From: Pararhizobium sp. YC-54
Lineage (GTDB): Bacteria > Pseudomonadota > Alphaproteobacteria > Rhizobiales > Rhizobiaceae
Assembly: GCF_025847205.1 (NCBI RefSeq)
Contig: NZ_JAOYTH010000010.1
Span: 1 to 64,000, forward strand
Reading direction: 5' to 3'
DNA length: 64,000 bases
Shown: piece after piece, positions 52,004 through 61,370 of the stretch
Layout of the letters: each line of letters begins with the position of its first letter
Position numbering within the stretch: the stretch's first letter is position 1
Notes under the pieces: model-generated
What the model saw: only the letters and a program-made list of their open reading frames with translations
Told to the model about the DNA's origin: nothing
Database searches by the model: none
Made by a program: the position numbers and the translations under genes

Positions 52004-52959
52004 GCCTTGTCGTGAATTGGATGGTGATGTCACGTTGTTTCATCAATGATCAAGCAAGGTCTGGGAAATTAAGCACTCGCGCCGGTCACGGCTGCGGCGG
52101 GACGATGACGGGCCAACTGTCAATGGATCGACAGAAAATCCCATCATCTTTGCCTTGTATCCGTGAACAGAAATATAGCTGTAAATTATCGTGAACACAG
52201 TCACAGCAAGTATGAAAAGTATTCCAATGTCGAGCCGCGTACCTGGGAAATAGGGCAGCCACGTTACGGCTGGTATCTGATGACTCTGGAGAAGTCCTGA
52301 CCCCGCGTCTCGGAGAGGATAGCTTGCAACACAGGAAGCCAGATGCCGGGCGAGCAGCGAGCTGGATAATGTTGCCGACCCTTCTAGTCCTCGGATTGGC
52401 GACGCGGCTTAGAGCGCTCGGCTTGCTCGCGATGACCATGGTCATTCAGCCTCCCAGCGAGCCGCACCCGTTCGCCCTCCGCATCAAGGATGTCCTGCGA
52501 CAGTTCTATCCTCGGATGACACAGATGTGCCAATCTCTTATCGCTTGACCGGCGTCCACTGGTAGATCTATAGTGGCTTATATTAGCAAGAATGATAATT
52601 GCGATCATATGCATACGGGCATCATCTTGATGAAGGCTGGGGTATATCGCCAGTCGGAATTACGGGTACCTCGCGCTACCCGGCGTCCTGGATTTATATC
52701 TACCGATGTCGTCCTATGACCAATATTCCGGGCCATGGGGATGGAAACTGATATTGACCACATCCGGTGTCGACAAGCGCATGTTTCGGCGTCGCGACAG
52801 GTTACGCCTTCCATGAAGACCGCAGGCTTTAGTGTGTTCGGACGGCTGGGCACGACGGCGATCTTGGGTGATGTAACTCGGACGCCAAAAGCGGCAAGTG
52901 CTACTGCATAGTTCCAGCTCACCTTCGCGCCGTACCAGACCGAACATGGGGCTCCACTT
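52004..52959. other. 956-bp decayed region
   Basis: No intact gene is visible on either strand. It is richer in A+T than its surroundings in places (for example 52160-52210 and 52560-52620). The one recognisable relic is a DoxX-like fragment (52354-52449). The region separates the LysR gene from the SGNH-MBOAT-ACP-FkbH cluster and may mark a past insertion or deletion. Confidence 0.5.
52354..52449 (+). pseudogene. remnant of a DoxX-family membrane protein
   Basis: The frame reads AASWIMLPTLLVLGLATRLRALGLLAMTMVIQ. DoxX proteins have LLLPLLLVLGLxTRxAALGLLAMTLVIQ at this point. The remainder of the protein, before and after, is missing or out of frame. About 32 residues survive. Confidence 0.5.
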
Positions 52960-53964
52960 GTGATGAGACAGCTTTCAATACTTCGGTGGCCGGTCGCCCG
53001 GAAGAGTCGTCTCGGTAATTGGACTCGTTACATGGCCGGCTCTGTGGCGACGGCTTTGGTCGCCGGTGCCGTCTACTTCCTCGCTCTCGTGACCCTGGAG
53101 AGGGTCGGGCGGTTGCCCCCGCCAGCTTTCGCAAACAGCCTCTGTGCCGATGAGAAGCTCGCTTTTCTGCGCGACAACCCTCCGAAATCGCCGACGGCGC
53201 TCATCCTCGGGTCGTCGGCCGCCTGGCGTGGTATCGCGAGCGCGGAAATCGCCCGCCGATATCCGGCCGCCAGGCCACTCAACGGCAGTTTTTGTGGGCT
53301 GCAGCTCAACCAGACCGAGTTCGTCGCCGACTATCTGCTGAGCCGGTATCCGAATGTCCAGGACGTGCTGCTCCTGCTCAGCCCAATCGATATGGACACC
53401 TGTACTGGCACCGACGCGCGCCTGTTCGACAGGAGCGACGTCGATGACTATTTGGCAAGCGAAGGCCCGATCTGGAGCTATTACTTCACCTATTTCGATC
53501 CGGTTTCGCTGGTCCGCAACGCCAGCTTCGTCAAGGCCGCGCGCGAGAACAGGCTTCCCTTCTATCCGCTGATCTTCACGGCCTATGGCGACGGCCCGCA
53601 GACTACCGATAAGAGCCGCAAGATCGACGGGGAACGCTTCGACGCAATCGATCCGGCCTGTGTGTCGTCGCTGCGGAGGCTGGCGCATAGGATTACCGCC
53701 GGCGGGCGGCAGCTGACAGTGGCATCCCTCCCGTTGCTACCGGCCGGGATCGAGCAGTCCGACCCGACGGGTGCGATCCATGACCACATGGTGCGAGAGA
53801 TCGAGAGCGCCATCGACGGGACGAGTGCCGTTTTCTGGGACGGCGAGCGCTTCGCGCAGGTGGATGCGCGCGACTTCGTCGATCCTATCCATCTGCGCTG
53901 GACAGGGGCTGCACGCTTCACGAGCCAGCTCGTCACGGCCACCGGCTTCGGTGCCGTGAAATGA
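52960..53964 (+). CDS. SGNH/AlgX-like membrane-anchored protein
   Basis: A 334-residue protein. One membrane helix (about 24-48) leaves a periplasmic domain. The domain has the SGNH pattern: LILGSSAAWRG with Ser85/Ser86 as nucleophile candidate, NGSFCGLQLNQTEF, and the DPIHLRWTGAARF segment with the Asp-x-x-His pair near the C-terminus. Such proteins partner MBOAT acyltransferases and act as periplasmic acyl-acceptor transferases or esterases, like AlgJ/AlgX or DltD. GTG at 52960 is followed by an ATG at 52963. The MBOAT gene starts 16 bp downstream. Confidence 0.85.
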   Translation: MMRQLSILRWPVARKSRLGNWTRYMAGSVATALVAGAVYFLALVTLERVGRLPPPAFANSLCADEKLAFLRDNPPKSPTALILGSSAAWRGIASAEIARRYPAARPLNGSFCGLQLNQTEFVADYLLSRYPNVQDVLLLLSPIDMDTCTGTDARLFDRSDVDDYLASEGPIWSYYFTYFDPVSLVRNASFVKAARENRLPFYPLIFTAYGDGPQTTDKSRKIDGERFDAIDPACVSSLRRLAHRITAGGRQLTVASLPLLPAGIEQSDPTGAIHDHMVREIESAIDGTSAVFWDGERFAQVDARDFVDPIHLRWTGAARFTSQLVTATGFGAVK

Positions 53965-53980
53965 TCGCGGGGTAGCCGAC

Positions 53981-55543
53981 ATGCTGTTCAACTCCGCCAC
54001 TTTCCTTCTCGGCTTGTTGCCGATTGCTCTGATCGGTTTTTTTGCCCTTGGGCGCACGGGTCGATACAAACTCGCGATCGTCTGGCTCTCGCTTGTTTCG
54101 CTCGTCTTCTATGGCTGGTGGAACGTGGCCTACGTGCCGCTGCTGCTGGCCTCCATCATCGTCAATTACACAATCGGCACCGTGCTCACCCGACGGAAGG
54201 TGAAGAGCCTTCTGATCGCCGGCATCGCTCTCAACGTGCTTGTGCTCGGTTACTACAAATATGCCGGGTTTTTCGTGGTCACGGTCGACAGCGTGCTCGA
54301 TCTGGGCCTGCCTGTGCCGACGATCCTCCTCCCCCTGGCGATCTCGTTCTTCACGTTTCAACAGATCGCCTATCTTTGCGATGCCTACGAGGACGTTGCG
54401 ACGGAGCGGAGTTTTGCCAATTATTGCCTGTTCATCACCTTCTTTCCGCATCTGATCGCCGGACCCATCACCCATCACAAGGAGATGATGCCGCAGTTCG
54501 ACGACGCGCGGATCTTCAAGCCACAATCACGGATGCTGGCACTCGGCGGCACGATCTTTGTCGTCGGCCTTTTCAAGAAAGTGATCATCGCCGACACCAT
54601 CGCTTTGTGGGCAAACCCGGTCTTCACCGCCGCCGGCAAGGGCGATGCATTGCAGATGCTCGAGGCCTGGGGTGGCGCTCTCTCGTACACGCTGCAGATA
54701 TACTTCGACTTTTCCGGGTACTCGGACATGGCGATCGGCCTCGGCATGCTGTTCGGCATCCGTTTGCCGTTCAACTTCAATTCGCCGCTCAAGGCGCGCA
54801 ACATCATCGACTTCTGGTCGCGTTGGCACATGACCCTGACGCGGTTCGTGACCGCCTATATCTACAATCCCTTGAGCCTCAGCCTGACACGACGCTGGCT
54901 TGCGAGCGGCAGGCCGGGCCTGCGGCGCGGCAAGACCAGCCCCGCGGCCTTTCTCGTCCTTCTCGCCGCGCCGACGATCCTGGCGATGGTGATCATCGGC
55001 TGGTGGCATGGCGCCGGCTGGCAATTCGCCGCCTTCGGTCTGGTACACGGGCTGTTTCTCACGATCAACCATGGCTGGCGGATGCTCAAGATGCACTGGC
55101 GGTGGCGCGTCGACAGCGATCGGCCGATCCACGTCGTCCCCTCGGTTCTGATGACGATGGGATGCGTCATGGTCGGGCTCGTGTTCTTCCGATCTCCGGA
55201 CCTTGCGACGGCGCTTCACCTCTTGCGCTGCATGACCGGCTTCAACGGCCTCGGCTTGCATTCCTCCGAACTCCTGGATTGGGACGCGGTGCAACTGCAG
55301 CTCGTGCTGCTGGCGATCGTCTGGTTCCTGCCGAACGTCCAGGAGTGGCTATGCCACTACGAGACCGGTCTCGGTGAGGTGCGGCCGGCGATGTGGCTCA
55401 ATAGCAAGCAGCGCTTGGTTAGTCGGGTGTTCGCGTGGAAGCCAACGCCGGCGTTTGCCGCCCTCACAGGCCTGATCGGCTTTCTTGCGATCACGCGGGC
55501 GTTGTCGGCGGCCCCCACCATGTTCCTCTATTTTCAATTCTAG
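53981..55543 (+). CDS. MBOAT-family O-acyltransferase (AlgI/DltB-like)
   Basis: A 520-residue polytopic membrane protein with 11-13 hydrophobic segments. It has the MBOAT motifs SFFTFQQIAYLCDAY, FPHLIAGPITHHKEMMPQF, YFDFSGYSDMAIGLGMLFGIRLPFNFNSPLKARNIIDFWSRWHMTLTRF and the invariant histidine His343 in WWHGAGWQF. This is the core that passes an acyl group from a cytoplasmic carrier to an extracytoplasmic acceptor. The acyl carrier protein gene follows 12 bp downstream. It differs from alginate acetylation operons, which have AlgF and no carrier protein. Confidence 0.93.
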   Translation: MLFNSATFLLGLLPIALIGFFALGRTGRYKLAIVWLSLVSLVFYGWWNVAYVPLLLASIIVNYTIGTVLTRRKVKSLLIAGIALNVLVLGYYKYAGFFVVTVDSVLDLGLPVPTILLPLAISFFTFQQIAYLCDAYEDVATERSFANYCLFITFFPHLIAGPITHHKEMMPQFDDARIFKPQSRMLALGGTIFVVGLFKKVIIADTIALWANPVFTAAGKGDALQMLEAWGGALSYTLQIYFDFSGYSDMAIGLGMLFGIRLPFNFNSPLKARNIIDFWSRWHMTLTRFVTAYIYNPLSLSLTRRWLASGRPGLRRGKTSPAAFLVLLAAPTILAMVIIGWWHGAGWQFAAFGLVHGLFLTINHGWRMLKMHWRWRVDSDRPIHVVPSVLMTMGCVMVGLVFFRSPDLATALHLLRCMTGFNGLGLHSSELLDWDAVQLQLVLLAIVWFLPNVQEWLCHYETGLGEVRPAMWLNSKQRLVSRVFAWKPTPAFAALTGLIGFLAITRALSAAPTMFLYFQF

Positions 55544-55555
55544 GGAGTTGTCGAC

Positions 55556-55792
55556 ATGGTGGACGAGATCTATGTGCGGCTGGAGACGATCTTCCGGGAT
55601 GTCTTCGACGACGACGACCTGATCGTCACTCCGCAGCTGACGGCGAGGGATGTCGACGGCTGGGACAGCATGATGAACGTGCAGCTCATGCTGAGTGTCG
55701 AGCGGGCGTTCAAGGTGCATTTCTCGGCCAGCCAGATCGCCTCCCTGGGCAATGTTGGCGAGCTCGCTGCGCTCATCCAGCGTATGACTTGA
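55556..55792 (+). CDS. acyl carrier protein
   Basis: A 78-residue four-helix carrier protein. The phosphopantetheine serine is Ser38 in the motif DVDGWDSMMNVQLM (the usual form is DSL). It begins MVDEIYVRLETIFRDVFDDDDLIVTP. In this cluster it should carry the small acyl group made by the FkbH-like protein to the MBOAT transferase. It is not the fatty-acid-synthesis ACP, which has DSLDT and lies with fab genes. Start and stop fit tightly between the two neighbours (12 and 23 bp). Confidence 0.95.
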   Translation: MVDEIYVRLETIFRDVFDDDDLIVTPQLTARDVDGWDSMMNVQLMLSVERAFKVHFSASQIASLGNVGELAALIQRMT

Positions 55793-55815
55793 GGTATTGC
55801 ACGTAGGAGCCGAAC

Positions 55816-57726
55816 GTGAGTTGCGACCTATTTCTAGACCTCGCTTGGCTGCCCAGGCCGCCCGCCGATTTCAAGGACATGTGCCGGCGCGTCGCGGGTG
55901 ACACGTCCGGTGCCGAGATCCAGCACCTGGCGTCGTTCGCTCTCGACGCGAACCAGTCGACGCGCGTGGCCCGCGTCATCCGTGCGCTGCAGGAGCAGGA
56001 CCGGCTTCTGCCACCGCTGACCCCTATGAAGCTCGGCGTCCTCGCCAACGGCACGATCGATCTGGTGATAAACGCGCTGGCCGCCGCCGCCGCCCGGCAC
56101 GGGATTCTGCTCGAGTGTGTCACCGCCGATTACGGGCTGTTCGCGCAGGAAGCGCTCGATCCTGGTTCCAGGATCAATGCGGCGCGGTGCGATGCCGTGC
56201 TCCTCGCCCTCGACTATCGCGCGTTTCCCTTCGTTCCCTCGCCTGGAAACGCAACGGCAGCAGCCGCCAATATAGAGGAAGCGATCGTCTTCCTGAACCG
56301 GATCCGCGAGGGAATCACCGCCAGTGGAGCGGTCTGCATTCTGCAAACCCTGGCACCGCCGGCCGAGGTGCTGTTCGGCAGCATGGATCGCTTCCTGCCA
56401 GGCACGCCACGGCATCTCATCGACGGGTTCAACCGCCGTCTTGCGGCGGAGCGCGAAGGCACGGCCGATGTGCTGCTTGACGTCACTGCCATTGCCGAAA
56501 CAGTTGGCCTCGCCCACTGGCATTCGCCGAGCCAATGGAATCTTGCGAAGTTGTCGTTCGCCGACAGCTGCGTTCCGCTCTATGCCGACCATGTCGGACG
56601 GCTCCTGGGGGCGATGCGGGGCAAGGCCCGGCGCTGCCTCGTTCTCGACCTCGACAACACGCTTTGGGGCGGCGTCATCGGCGACGACGGTCTGCACGGG
56701 ATCATGCTCGCCGAGGGCGACGCCGTGGGCGAGGCGTATCGAAGCGTGCAGTGCCTGGCACTCGCCTTGCGCGAGCGCGGCATCGTGCTGGCCGTATCGT
56801 CCAAGAATACCGACGAGGTGGCGAGGCGCGTCTTTCGCGAGCACCCGGAAATGCTGATCCGCGAGGAGCAGATCACCGTTTTCCAGGCAAACTGGGACGA
56901 CAAGGCGACGAACATCAAGGCGATCGCCGACGCCCTGTCGCTCGGGCTTGATTCACTGGTGTTGCTGGATGACAATCCGGTCGAGCGGGGGCTGGTGCGG
57001 CAGATTCTGCCGCAAGTGGCGGTGCCTGAACTGCCTCACGATCCGGCCCTGTACGCGCGTACGCTGGCGGCCGCGGGGTACTTCGAAGCGACGACCTTCT
57101 CGGACGAAGATCGCAGACGCGCCGCCTACTATGAGGGCAATGCACAACGTGTGGTACTGCAGGAGCGAGCGGGCGACGTCGATTCCTATCTCGCATCGCT
57201 CGAGATGGAGATCACCTTCAGGCCGTTCGATCGCACCGGCCGATCACGGATCGCACAGCTGATCAACAAGTCCAATCAGTTCAATCTGACCACCCGGCGC
57301 TATACGGAGGCCGAGGTGGCGGCGGTCGAGAGCGATCCGACATGCACGACGCTGCAGGTCCGTCTCGCCGACCGCTTCGGCGACAACGGCATGATCAGCG
57401 TGATCATTTGCCAAACGTTGCCGGAATCGACCTGGGAGATCGATACTTGGCTGATGAGCTGCCGGGTGCTGGGGCGACGGGTCGAGCAAATGGTGCTGCG
57501 CGAAATCCTGCGGCAAGCGCGGGAGGCCGGGATCCGTAAGCTTGTCGGTATCTATCGACCAACGGACCGCAACGCGATGGTGCGCGACCACTATGCGAAG
57601 CTGGGCTTCACGCAGATCGCAAACGAGGACGGAGGCCCGAGCCGGTGGATGCTCGATGCGGCCACCGAGATCGAGCCTGCATCGATGCGGGTGCGTCGCG
57701 AGTCGCCAACAGACCTCCATGCTTAG
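55816..57726 (+). CDS. FkbH-like HAD/GNAT enzyme, glyceryl-ACP synthase type
   Basis: A 636-residue protein. The N-terminal part (about 70-265) is an SGNH-like region, with LGVLANGTIDLVINAL and HWHSPSQWNLAKLSFAD. The HAD-IIIC domain (about 270-420) has the nucleophile motif LDLDNTLWGGVIGDDG (Asp278 and Asp280) and later VLLDDNPVERGLVRQ. The C-terminal part (about 430-615) is GNAT-like, with LINKSNQFNLTTRRYTEAEV and ADRFGDNGMISVIIC. FkbH enzymes dephosphorylate 1,3-bisphosphoglycerate and load the glyceryl group on a carrier protein. It closes the SGNH-MBOAT-ACP cluster and is probably its donor enzyme. Confidence 0.93.
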   Translation: MSCDLFLDLAWLPRPPADFKDMCRRVAGDTSGAEIQHLASFALDANQSTRVARVIRALQEQDRLLPPLTPMKLGVLANGTIDLVINALAAAAARHGILLECVTADYGLFAQEALDPGSRINAARCDAVLLALDYRAFPFVPSPGNATAAAANIEEAIVFLNRIREGITASGAVCILQTLAPPAEVLFGSMDRFLPGTPRHLIDGFNRRLAAEREGTADVLLDVTAIAETVGLAHWHSPSQWNLAKLSFADSCVPLYADHVGRLLGAMRGKARRCLVLDLDNTLWGGVIGDDGLHGIMLAEGDAVGEAYRSVQCLALALRERGIVLAVSSKNTDEVARRVFREHPEMLIREEQITVFQANWDDKATNIKAIADALSLGLDSLVLLDDNPVERGLVRQILPQVAVPELPHDPALYARTLAAAGYFEATTFSDEDRRRAAYYEGNAQRVVLQERAGDVDSYLASLEMEITFRPFDRTGRSRIAQLINKSNQFNLTTRRYTEAEVAAVESDPTCTTLQVRLADRFGDNGMISVIICQTLPESTWEIDTWLMSCRVLGRRVEQMVLREILRQAREAGIRKLVGIYRPTDRNAMVRDHYAKLGFTQIANEDGGPSRWMLDAATEIEPASMRVRRESPTDLHA

Positions 57727-57865
57727 AGTGCCGAACGTTTAATCTGCCCGAGCTGATCAGGGCACGCGCGGACCGGCTGAAGCCTGGATGTGGCAAGTGG
57801 ATGAGGCGCTCCCACGGCGATGGAGTTCATCAAGGACATCAGCGACACCCGGTCTTTTGCGATCC

Positions 57866-59163: not shown

Positions 59164-61370
<2,207 letters not shown>

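Follow-up and report, generated by a model that had tools for sequence, protein, structure and literature searches.

A mobile four-gene cassette from Pararhizobium sp. YC-54 as a candidate FkbH-driven, Dlt-like machine for O-glycerylation of the cell envelope

A stretch of 64,000 nucleotides from Pararhizobium sp. YC-54 (contig NZ_JAOYTH010000010.1, positions 1 to 64,000; hereafter the window) carries four consecutive genes on the plus strand, which encode an SGNH-fold protein (52960-53964), an MBOAT membrane acyltransferase (53981-55543), a carrier protein (55556-55792) and an FkbH-type protein (55816-57726). We propose, with a probability of roughly 0.6, that these proteins form a Dlt-like machine for envelope O-acylation, in which FkbH provides the donor and glyceryl is the group transferred. 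The coordinates of the open reading frames (ORFs) yield intergenic gaps of 16, 12 and 23 bp, bearing out the tight packing described in an earlier reading of the DNA from its letters alone (the sequence-only reading), and alignments recovered all motifs named there, that is His343 of the MBOAT, Ser38 of the carrier and DLDNT of FkbH. Mechanistically, FkbH would take 3-phosphoglyceryl from 1,3-bisphosphoglycerate, its HAD domain would remove the phosphate, as is the chemistry of the family, and D-glyceryl would be loaded onto the phosphopantetheine of the carrier. The DltB-like MBOAT would take glyceryl over from the carrier in the cytoplasm and bring it to the far side of the inner membrane, where the serine of the anchored SGNH protein would receive it and then esterify an extracytoplasmic acceptor. 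This acceptor would most likely be an exopolysaccharide, a capsule or another envelope glycan, which is the weakest step of the scheme.

The FkbH-type protein (55816..57726, plus strand) comprises an N-terminal part, a HAD domain whose DLDNTLWGG motif begins at Asp278, and a C-terminal part containing SCRVLGR (Cys549). It is full-length and reaches 300 bits with TIGR01686 as compared to a curated cut-off of 146.65; the HAD DxD motif and the SCR-type cysteine are kept in 81 of 82 aligned rows, the remaining row being gapped. The MBOAT (53981..55543, plus strand) matches PF03062 with E 6e-19. Its residues His343 (codon 55007..55009, plus strand) and His283 are each histidine in 51 of 52 rows, and for His343 the remaining row is a gap. 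It is DltB-like, with a match to TIGR04091 (DltB) at E 9e-52 and 176.6 bits, which is below the curated cut-off of 375, and with matches to DltB structures at E about 2e-27. In the carrier (55556..55792, plus strand; PF00550, E 7e-6), the phosphopantetheine site Ser38 (codon 55667..55669, plus strand) lies in WDSMMN, a motif whose tryptophan and serine are present in 76 of 76 rows and whose last place is taken by H in 51, N in 12 and Q in 9 of them. Throughout the 6.2 Mb genome there is a single TIGR01686 match and a single PF03062 match, and both lie in the cassette. For the first gene, ATG at 52963 appears the likelier start as compared to GTG at 52960, because it is kept in all three compared cassettes; the gene would then cover 52963..53964 on the plus strand. 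Its product gave no Pfam or NCBIfam match. Nevertheless, the predicted model (mean predicted local distance difference test score 93) adopts the SGNH fold with DltD as top Foldseek match, in agreement with the SGNH-like protein of the sequence-only reading. The product thus combines the two features that define the SGNH superfamily, i.e. the fold and the catalytic Ser and Asp-His residues, here GSS with Ser85/86, Asp308 and His311 (numbered from GTG 52960). Its single N-terminal helix is probably a membrane anchor.

The grouping of these genes is not confined to the window. An alignment search of a genome collection with FkbH returned at least 567 relatives, the best 80 of which, from several phyla, were analysed for partners within 8 kb using profiles seeded with the proteins of the window. 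Fifteen of these loci span less than 12 kb. A carrier was detected at 75 loci, an MBOAT at 50 and a window-type SGNH protein at nine. Because this set had been chosen by closeness, we added a broader sample by searching 385 alphaproteobacterial genomes with TIGR01686. Matches were obtained in 37 genomes, and 40 of the 44 rows were fetched, omitting the window itself, two partial weak matches and the second fragment of one frame. In this sample, 26 of the 40 FkbH loci hold a carrier and 16 hold an MBOAT, in each case together with a carrier. An MBOAT would be expected in 0.27 of 40 stretches of 17 kb as compared to the 16 observed (P 8e-25), when the base rate is taken from the density of PF03062 in positive genomes (142 genomes searched, 69 matches spread over 52 positive ones) with Pfam's profile and the observed number is counted with our own MBOAT profile. 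Since the gene grouping is conserved across loci, a chance grouping is excluded. Hence, the genome search for the cluster that the sequence-only reading had suggested revealed carrier and FkbH with MBOAT across phyla, far above chance. The outcome it had named as speaking against its proposal, namely an ordinary donor in every homologous cluster, was not what we observed. We also rejected the idea that the cassette is unique to the window, its relatives being widespread in both samples. In one further genome (G111), the SGNH gene sits at the end of a contig (L111), and a second contig end (L160) holds carrier-FkbH together with a truncated MBOAT, an arrangement compatible with one cluster.

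What FkbH and the carrier make was approached through their companions. Members of the FkbH family load glyceryl onto a carrier from 1,3-bisphosphoglycerate, as stated in the accessible parts of two papers (PMC8949500, PMC7489565). The window protein aligns over its full length with FkbH of four plasmid loci (L086, L087, L088, L096) that contain a FabH-like enzyme and a carrier; these served as controls and are called tetronate-type by gene content, not by record label. Companion enzymes were sought in the 80 loci with single-sequence queries of limited reach, the FkbK/FkbI-type queries being taken from L094, which by our reading is of the hydroxymalonyl type. Within this reach, a FabH-like enzyme was found at none of the 80 loci; among methoxymalonyl-type companions, 3-hydroxyacyl dehydrogenase was found at none and acyl-CoA dehydrogenase at two, and the cassette has none of the three. 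A ketosynthase occurs at one of the 80 loci and AMP-binding genes occur at six. Readings of FkbH as part of a tetronate, methoxymalonate or non-ribosomal peptide synthetase/polyketide synthase (NRPS/PKS) pathway were rejected, since these single-sequence queries detected the tested companions at few or none of the 80 loci and the cassette has none of them.

The SGNH partners and the phylogenies of the other proteins suggest that the cassette has two parts. A GxS...DxxH pattern, which is loose and includes a few matches that look false, was found in 28 of 44 genes directly beside an MBOAT on the same strand, as compared to 23 of 397 genes of like size lying farther away. Profile comparison linked another family of partners, A3, to GDSL esterases (best E 3.5e-5) and, weakly and over 96 columns, to the window-type SGNH family. 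The pattern in adjacent genes and the profile matches of A3 thus point to different SGNH partners with different MBOATs. In a tree of 51 MBOAT rows, all ten loci with a window-type SGNH protein form one group, with a value of 99 in the Shimodaira-Hasegawa-like approximate likelihood ratio test (SH-aLRT). On a tree of 92 FkbH rows, the same ten loci need three changes, i.e. they fall in three places; both trees are of a quick kind and contain some long rows and some of odd make-up. Holding the ten loci together on FkbH was rejected in a 39-row set by the approximately unbiased (AU) test (p 8e-12; p 4.5e-5 without L031 and L077). The window FkbH groups with acidobacterial, Bradyrhizobium and Caulobacteraceae proteins and one from Pseudomonas (14 rows), at an SH-aLRT of 93, short of the threshold of 95; the next larger set, of 40 rows, reaches 96. 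The seven best matches of the window carrier after that of L002, an Ensifer locus, are likewise from acidobacterial and Bradyrhizobium loci. Gene order varies as well: in one FkbH clade, 26 of 28 loci have the carrier after FkbH (the other two have none), and elsewhere the carrier precedes FkbH in 41 of 52. Because the MBOAT and FkbH trees place the loci with window-type SGNH proteins differently, the cassette is, to judge from these phylogenies, a chimera in which a transfer module (MBOAT-SGNH) and a donor module (carrier-FkbH) with separate histories have been joined.

In its present form, the cassette appears to travel as a whole. The stretch 52921..57729 (plus strand) is common with two other loci, L002 and L205, whose flanks are unrelated to those in the window. 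The locus of Ensifer sp. MPMI2T (L002) gave a blastn match to 52930-57708 at 87% identity and no second match at E 1e-5 in its 12.7 kb, and L205, from a genome assigned to a different genus within the family, matches 52921-57729 at 86% identity, other matches at E 1e-3 being 35-107 bp only. Comparison of L205 with L002 also gave a match confined to the cassette, at 82% identity. The match extends from about 40 bp upstream of the first gene to the stop codon of FkbH, stopping slightly earlier in L002. On the basis of these cassette-only matches, the three genomes have four genes in common and not their surroundings, and the four genes are, by this comparison, transferred as one mobile unit. The sequence-only reading had placed the cluster in mosaic DNA, which is true in the sense that the same four genes sit in unrelated surroundings in two other genomes. 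Neither the alignment of the borders nor the scan of neighbouring window genes showed a mobile element next to the cassette. The flanking DNA of L002 and L205 was covered at the level of ORFs, and by family only for three L002 flank ORFs, which are part of a sample of neighbour proteins described below. In a metagenome-assembled genome of Sphingomonas, a phage-type integrase lies just after a carrier-FkbH-MBOAT-SGNH cluster (L046:11427-12791), a hint as to how such cassettes may move. Among the ten best FkbH matches, the named relatives are Ensifer. Across 25 genomes of the host genus (own included), a close FkbH occurs in the own genome only and one other genome has a distant one, and we therefore rejected the cassette as genus heritage. 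The genus is patchy for close FkbH, not empty, and named Ensifer proteins with a close FkbH exist. In the family Rhizobiaceae, some FkbH match occurs in 18 of 297 genomes, own included, one other being at 87% identity.

Findings of several kinds weigh against the transfer of plain glyceryl to an envelope glycan by a dedicated machine. The 50 MBOAT loci hold methyltransferase (13), VOC (7), MaoC-SDR (7), SDR (3) and AMP-binding (4) genes, which makes an altered group or another donor possible at some of them. The same machine might therefore transfer another acyl group, host enzymes encoded elsewhere having methylated, dehydrated or reduced the C3 unit beforehand, and at plasmid loci L082, L083, L089 and L090 FkbH is indeed found near methyltransferase, VOC, WcbI or SDR genes. 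However, the window cassette is without such genes, and the three compared cassettes have only their four genes in common. Moreover, 21 of the 50 MBOAT loci lack all nine tailoring or donor families tested, a result in favour of plain glyceryl at these loci. We consider an altered acyl group unlikely.

On the acceptor side, glycan genes are scarce around the MBOAT loci sampled. Among 120 neighbour proteins, taken from 43 of these 50 loci, glycosyltransferases are rare (GT2 three, GT87 two, PF02397 one, counted among the matches listed, which cover 25 of 66 families), and none of 13 scanned window neighbours is a glycan gene. These counts would suit an SGNH protein that acylates a lipid or a small periplasmic molecule instead of a polymer, giving a lipid or a small secreted glycerate ester. 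Against this stand several loci at polysaccharide genes. In Sphingomonas, a Wzz/GNVR chain-length protein adjoins the cluster at L037. A PF02397 sugar transferase occurs at another locus, L031, which has the window-type SGNH protein. A Sphingomonas locus with FkbH and carrier and no MBOAT (L032) holds a UDP-sugar dehydrogenase, a GT2 enzyme and a protein that clusters with the PF02397 sugar transferases. On pSymB of S. meliloti, an MBOAT, an SGNH-like protein, a carrier and FkbH occur together, and about 5 kb away lie genes for a capsular polysaccharide protein, for ABC export and for RkpR. The SGNH-like protein is annotated there as a TonB receptor and has no Pfam match, and its sequence contains G-G-S and DPGH. 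We take the genes SMb20823-SMb20841 to be the neighbours of this MBOAT-FkbH cluster. They are missing in one strain and are termed 'capsular biosynthesis and export' in an accessible part of PMC4468178. In S. meliloti 1021 itself, FkbH of this cluster is split over two overlapping frames (L085:19209-21316, pSymB), whereas it is open in strains ml28 and RCAM1750, and a phenotype could therefore be missed in the model strain 1021. Overall, an acceptor other than a polymer seems improbable to us, about as much so as an altered acyl group.

Finally, the two modules also occur apart. An MBOAT was not seen at 30 of the best 80 FkbH loci (seven of which are shorter than 12 kb) and not within reach at 24 of the 40 loci of the broader sample, some of them cut by contig ends. 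Conversely, a genome of 100% completeness (G273) has an SGNH-MBOAT pair and no FkbH, with a group-1 glycosyltransferase and a protein with an FkbM methyltransferase domain a few kb away. Another genome (G113) has a weak partial SGNH match, with no MBOAT in 9 kb and no FkbH. Among 289 genomes, a window-type SGNH match is present in four, own included, and two of these are without FkbH. Only eight of the 69 alphaproteobacterial MBOAT matches (142 genomes) sit at FkbH loci, and no FkbH is annotated within 5 kb at five MBOAT loci on plasmids, chosen among the top matches after excluding one known to have FkbH and unannotated ones. As each module occurs without the other, the MBOAT-SGNH pair can accept a different donor, and other enzymes can draw on FkbH-carrier. 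G273 and the 30 FkbH loci without MBOAT speak against a strict reading of the 'dedicated' donor of the sequence-only reading. What stands of its glyceryl-transfer proposal are the kinds of proteins, their grouping above chance, the lack of another acyl donor in the cassette, and the absence or rarity of enzymes that would divert glyceryl-ACP (acyl carrier protein). The separate occurrences would also be explained if the cassette combined two adjacent functions that share no more than their transfer, the MBOAT-SGNH pair moving acetyl as in AlgI/AlgJ or PatA/PatB and carrier-FkbH serving another pathway. However, MBOAT and FkbH co-occur far above chance, the AU test indicates modules that re-associated and did not descend together, and the cassette has no other user of glyceryl-ACP, which makes two adjacent functions the least probable of these alternatives.

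The FkbH-donor scheme can be compared with characterised systems. Like Dlt (DltA-DltC-DltB-DltD), which D-alanylates teichoic acids, the cassette has a carrier, a DltB-like MBOAT and an SGNH protein. In contrast to Dlt, none of the four proteins is an adenylating ligase DltA, FkbH being present instead, and the MBOAT fails the curated DltB cut-off. For DltD, the match to TIGR04092 is weak and confined to one of 27 SGNH rows (E 0.0086), and comparison of the SGNH profile with DltD structures gave E 0.08 and 0.27. The carrier is a PP-binding protein as DltC is, but its only match in the PDB at E 0.01 is 2lml (E 1.4e-15), which we take to be GmACP3, with WDSLxH/N presumably the motif of 2lml-type carriers. 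The function of the 2lml protein is given as putative in the title of a paper cited in PMC4847154. The cassette would function as a relay of the Dlt type in which FkbH provides the donor; by membership, its proteins belong to the FkbH family and the SGNH fold, and the cassette does not belong to the Dlt system. A full-length FkbH bearing the same motifs, next to a WDS carrier, is also present in the glycerate-utilisation operons of tetronate pathways; the cassette differs from them in having no FabH-like enzyme and in using MBOAT and SGNH as acceptor machinery. It also differs from the O-acetylation systems AlgI/AlgJ/AlgX and PatA/PatB by its carrier and FkbH, since we know of no dedicated carrier or FkbH in those systems. 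The acyl donor of AlgI is called unidentified in an accessible part of PMC4432689.

More broadly, and somewhat short of even odds, the cassette may represent a widespread modular class of envelope O-glycerylation, in which the carrier and FkbH donor module is swapped horizontally among MBOAT-SGNH modules of differing acceptor specificity, giving glycerate-derived esters on surface polysaccharides, possibly including some sphingan glyceryl esters. Native gellan carries an O-2 L-glyceryl group, and the accessible parts of PMC9737242 and PMC9104527 name no gene for it, for a sphingan glyceryl transferase or for ester-bound glycerate in glycans. A gellan-producing strain was not found among the best 120 of 8000 matches to a Sphingomonas FkbH, few of which carry names. 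Gellan is a lead only, because 1,3-bisphosphoglycerate should give D-glyceryl and gellan has L-glycerate. In the open-licence literature searched, there was no account of HAD-IIIC with MBOAT or of MBOAT-SGNH-carrier with a polysaccharide. FkbH and MBOAT appeared together only in work on the cyanobacterial peptides suomilide and aeruginosin, as far as its accessible parts go, and FkbH was absent among the listed matches on polysaccharide terms. What is new here is the chimeric make-up and mobility of the cassette, which belongs to a widespread system that we did not find described in that literature. If the scheme is correct, central metabolism, in the form of 1,3-bisphosphoglycerate, would be joined directly to surface decoration without a Dlt-style activation by a ligase, and a testable set of genes would be at hand for ester-bound glycerate in bacterial glycans. 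Likewise, 2lml-type carriers and many 'HAD-IIIC phosphatases' would become parts of a readable pathway, and the exchange of modules suggests that donor and acceptor halves are recombinable.

Further arrangements of FkbH and carrier were observed along the way. A protein of MaoC-SDR type (L055:6153-7637 and relatives) recurs at 12 of the 80 FkbH-carrier loci by clustering and at 11 by sequence search, pointing to an additional pathway in which the three-carbon unit is altered. At L082:7693-11395, L083:7059-12337 and L089:6710-10034, FkbH-carrier is accompanied by a methyltransferase and/or a VOC protein, and this group possibly deals with O-methylglyceryl or a related unit. A plasmid of Methylosinus trichosporium OB3b contains an operon resembling those for glycerate utilisation (L088:6239-12440), with genes for a FabH-like enzyme, HAD-IIIC, a carrier, an E2-like protein, a monooxygenase and a hydrolase, followed by a type I PKS. 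In the window, the 13 scanned neighbours of the cassette are an ABC-type substrate-binding protein, three LysR regulators, a DUF1989 protein, a lumazine-binding-like protein, an esterase-like hydrolase, two aldo/keto reductase frames, two TRAP-transporter proteins, a shikimate-dehydrogenase-like protein and a cyclase. An aldo/keto reductase gene at 59211-60304 is apparently broken into two overlapping frames, one recognised in the scan and the other by eye, and adjoins an intact relative at 60213-61370.

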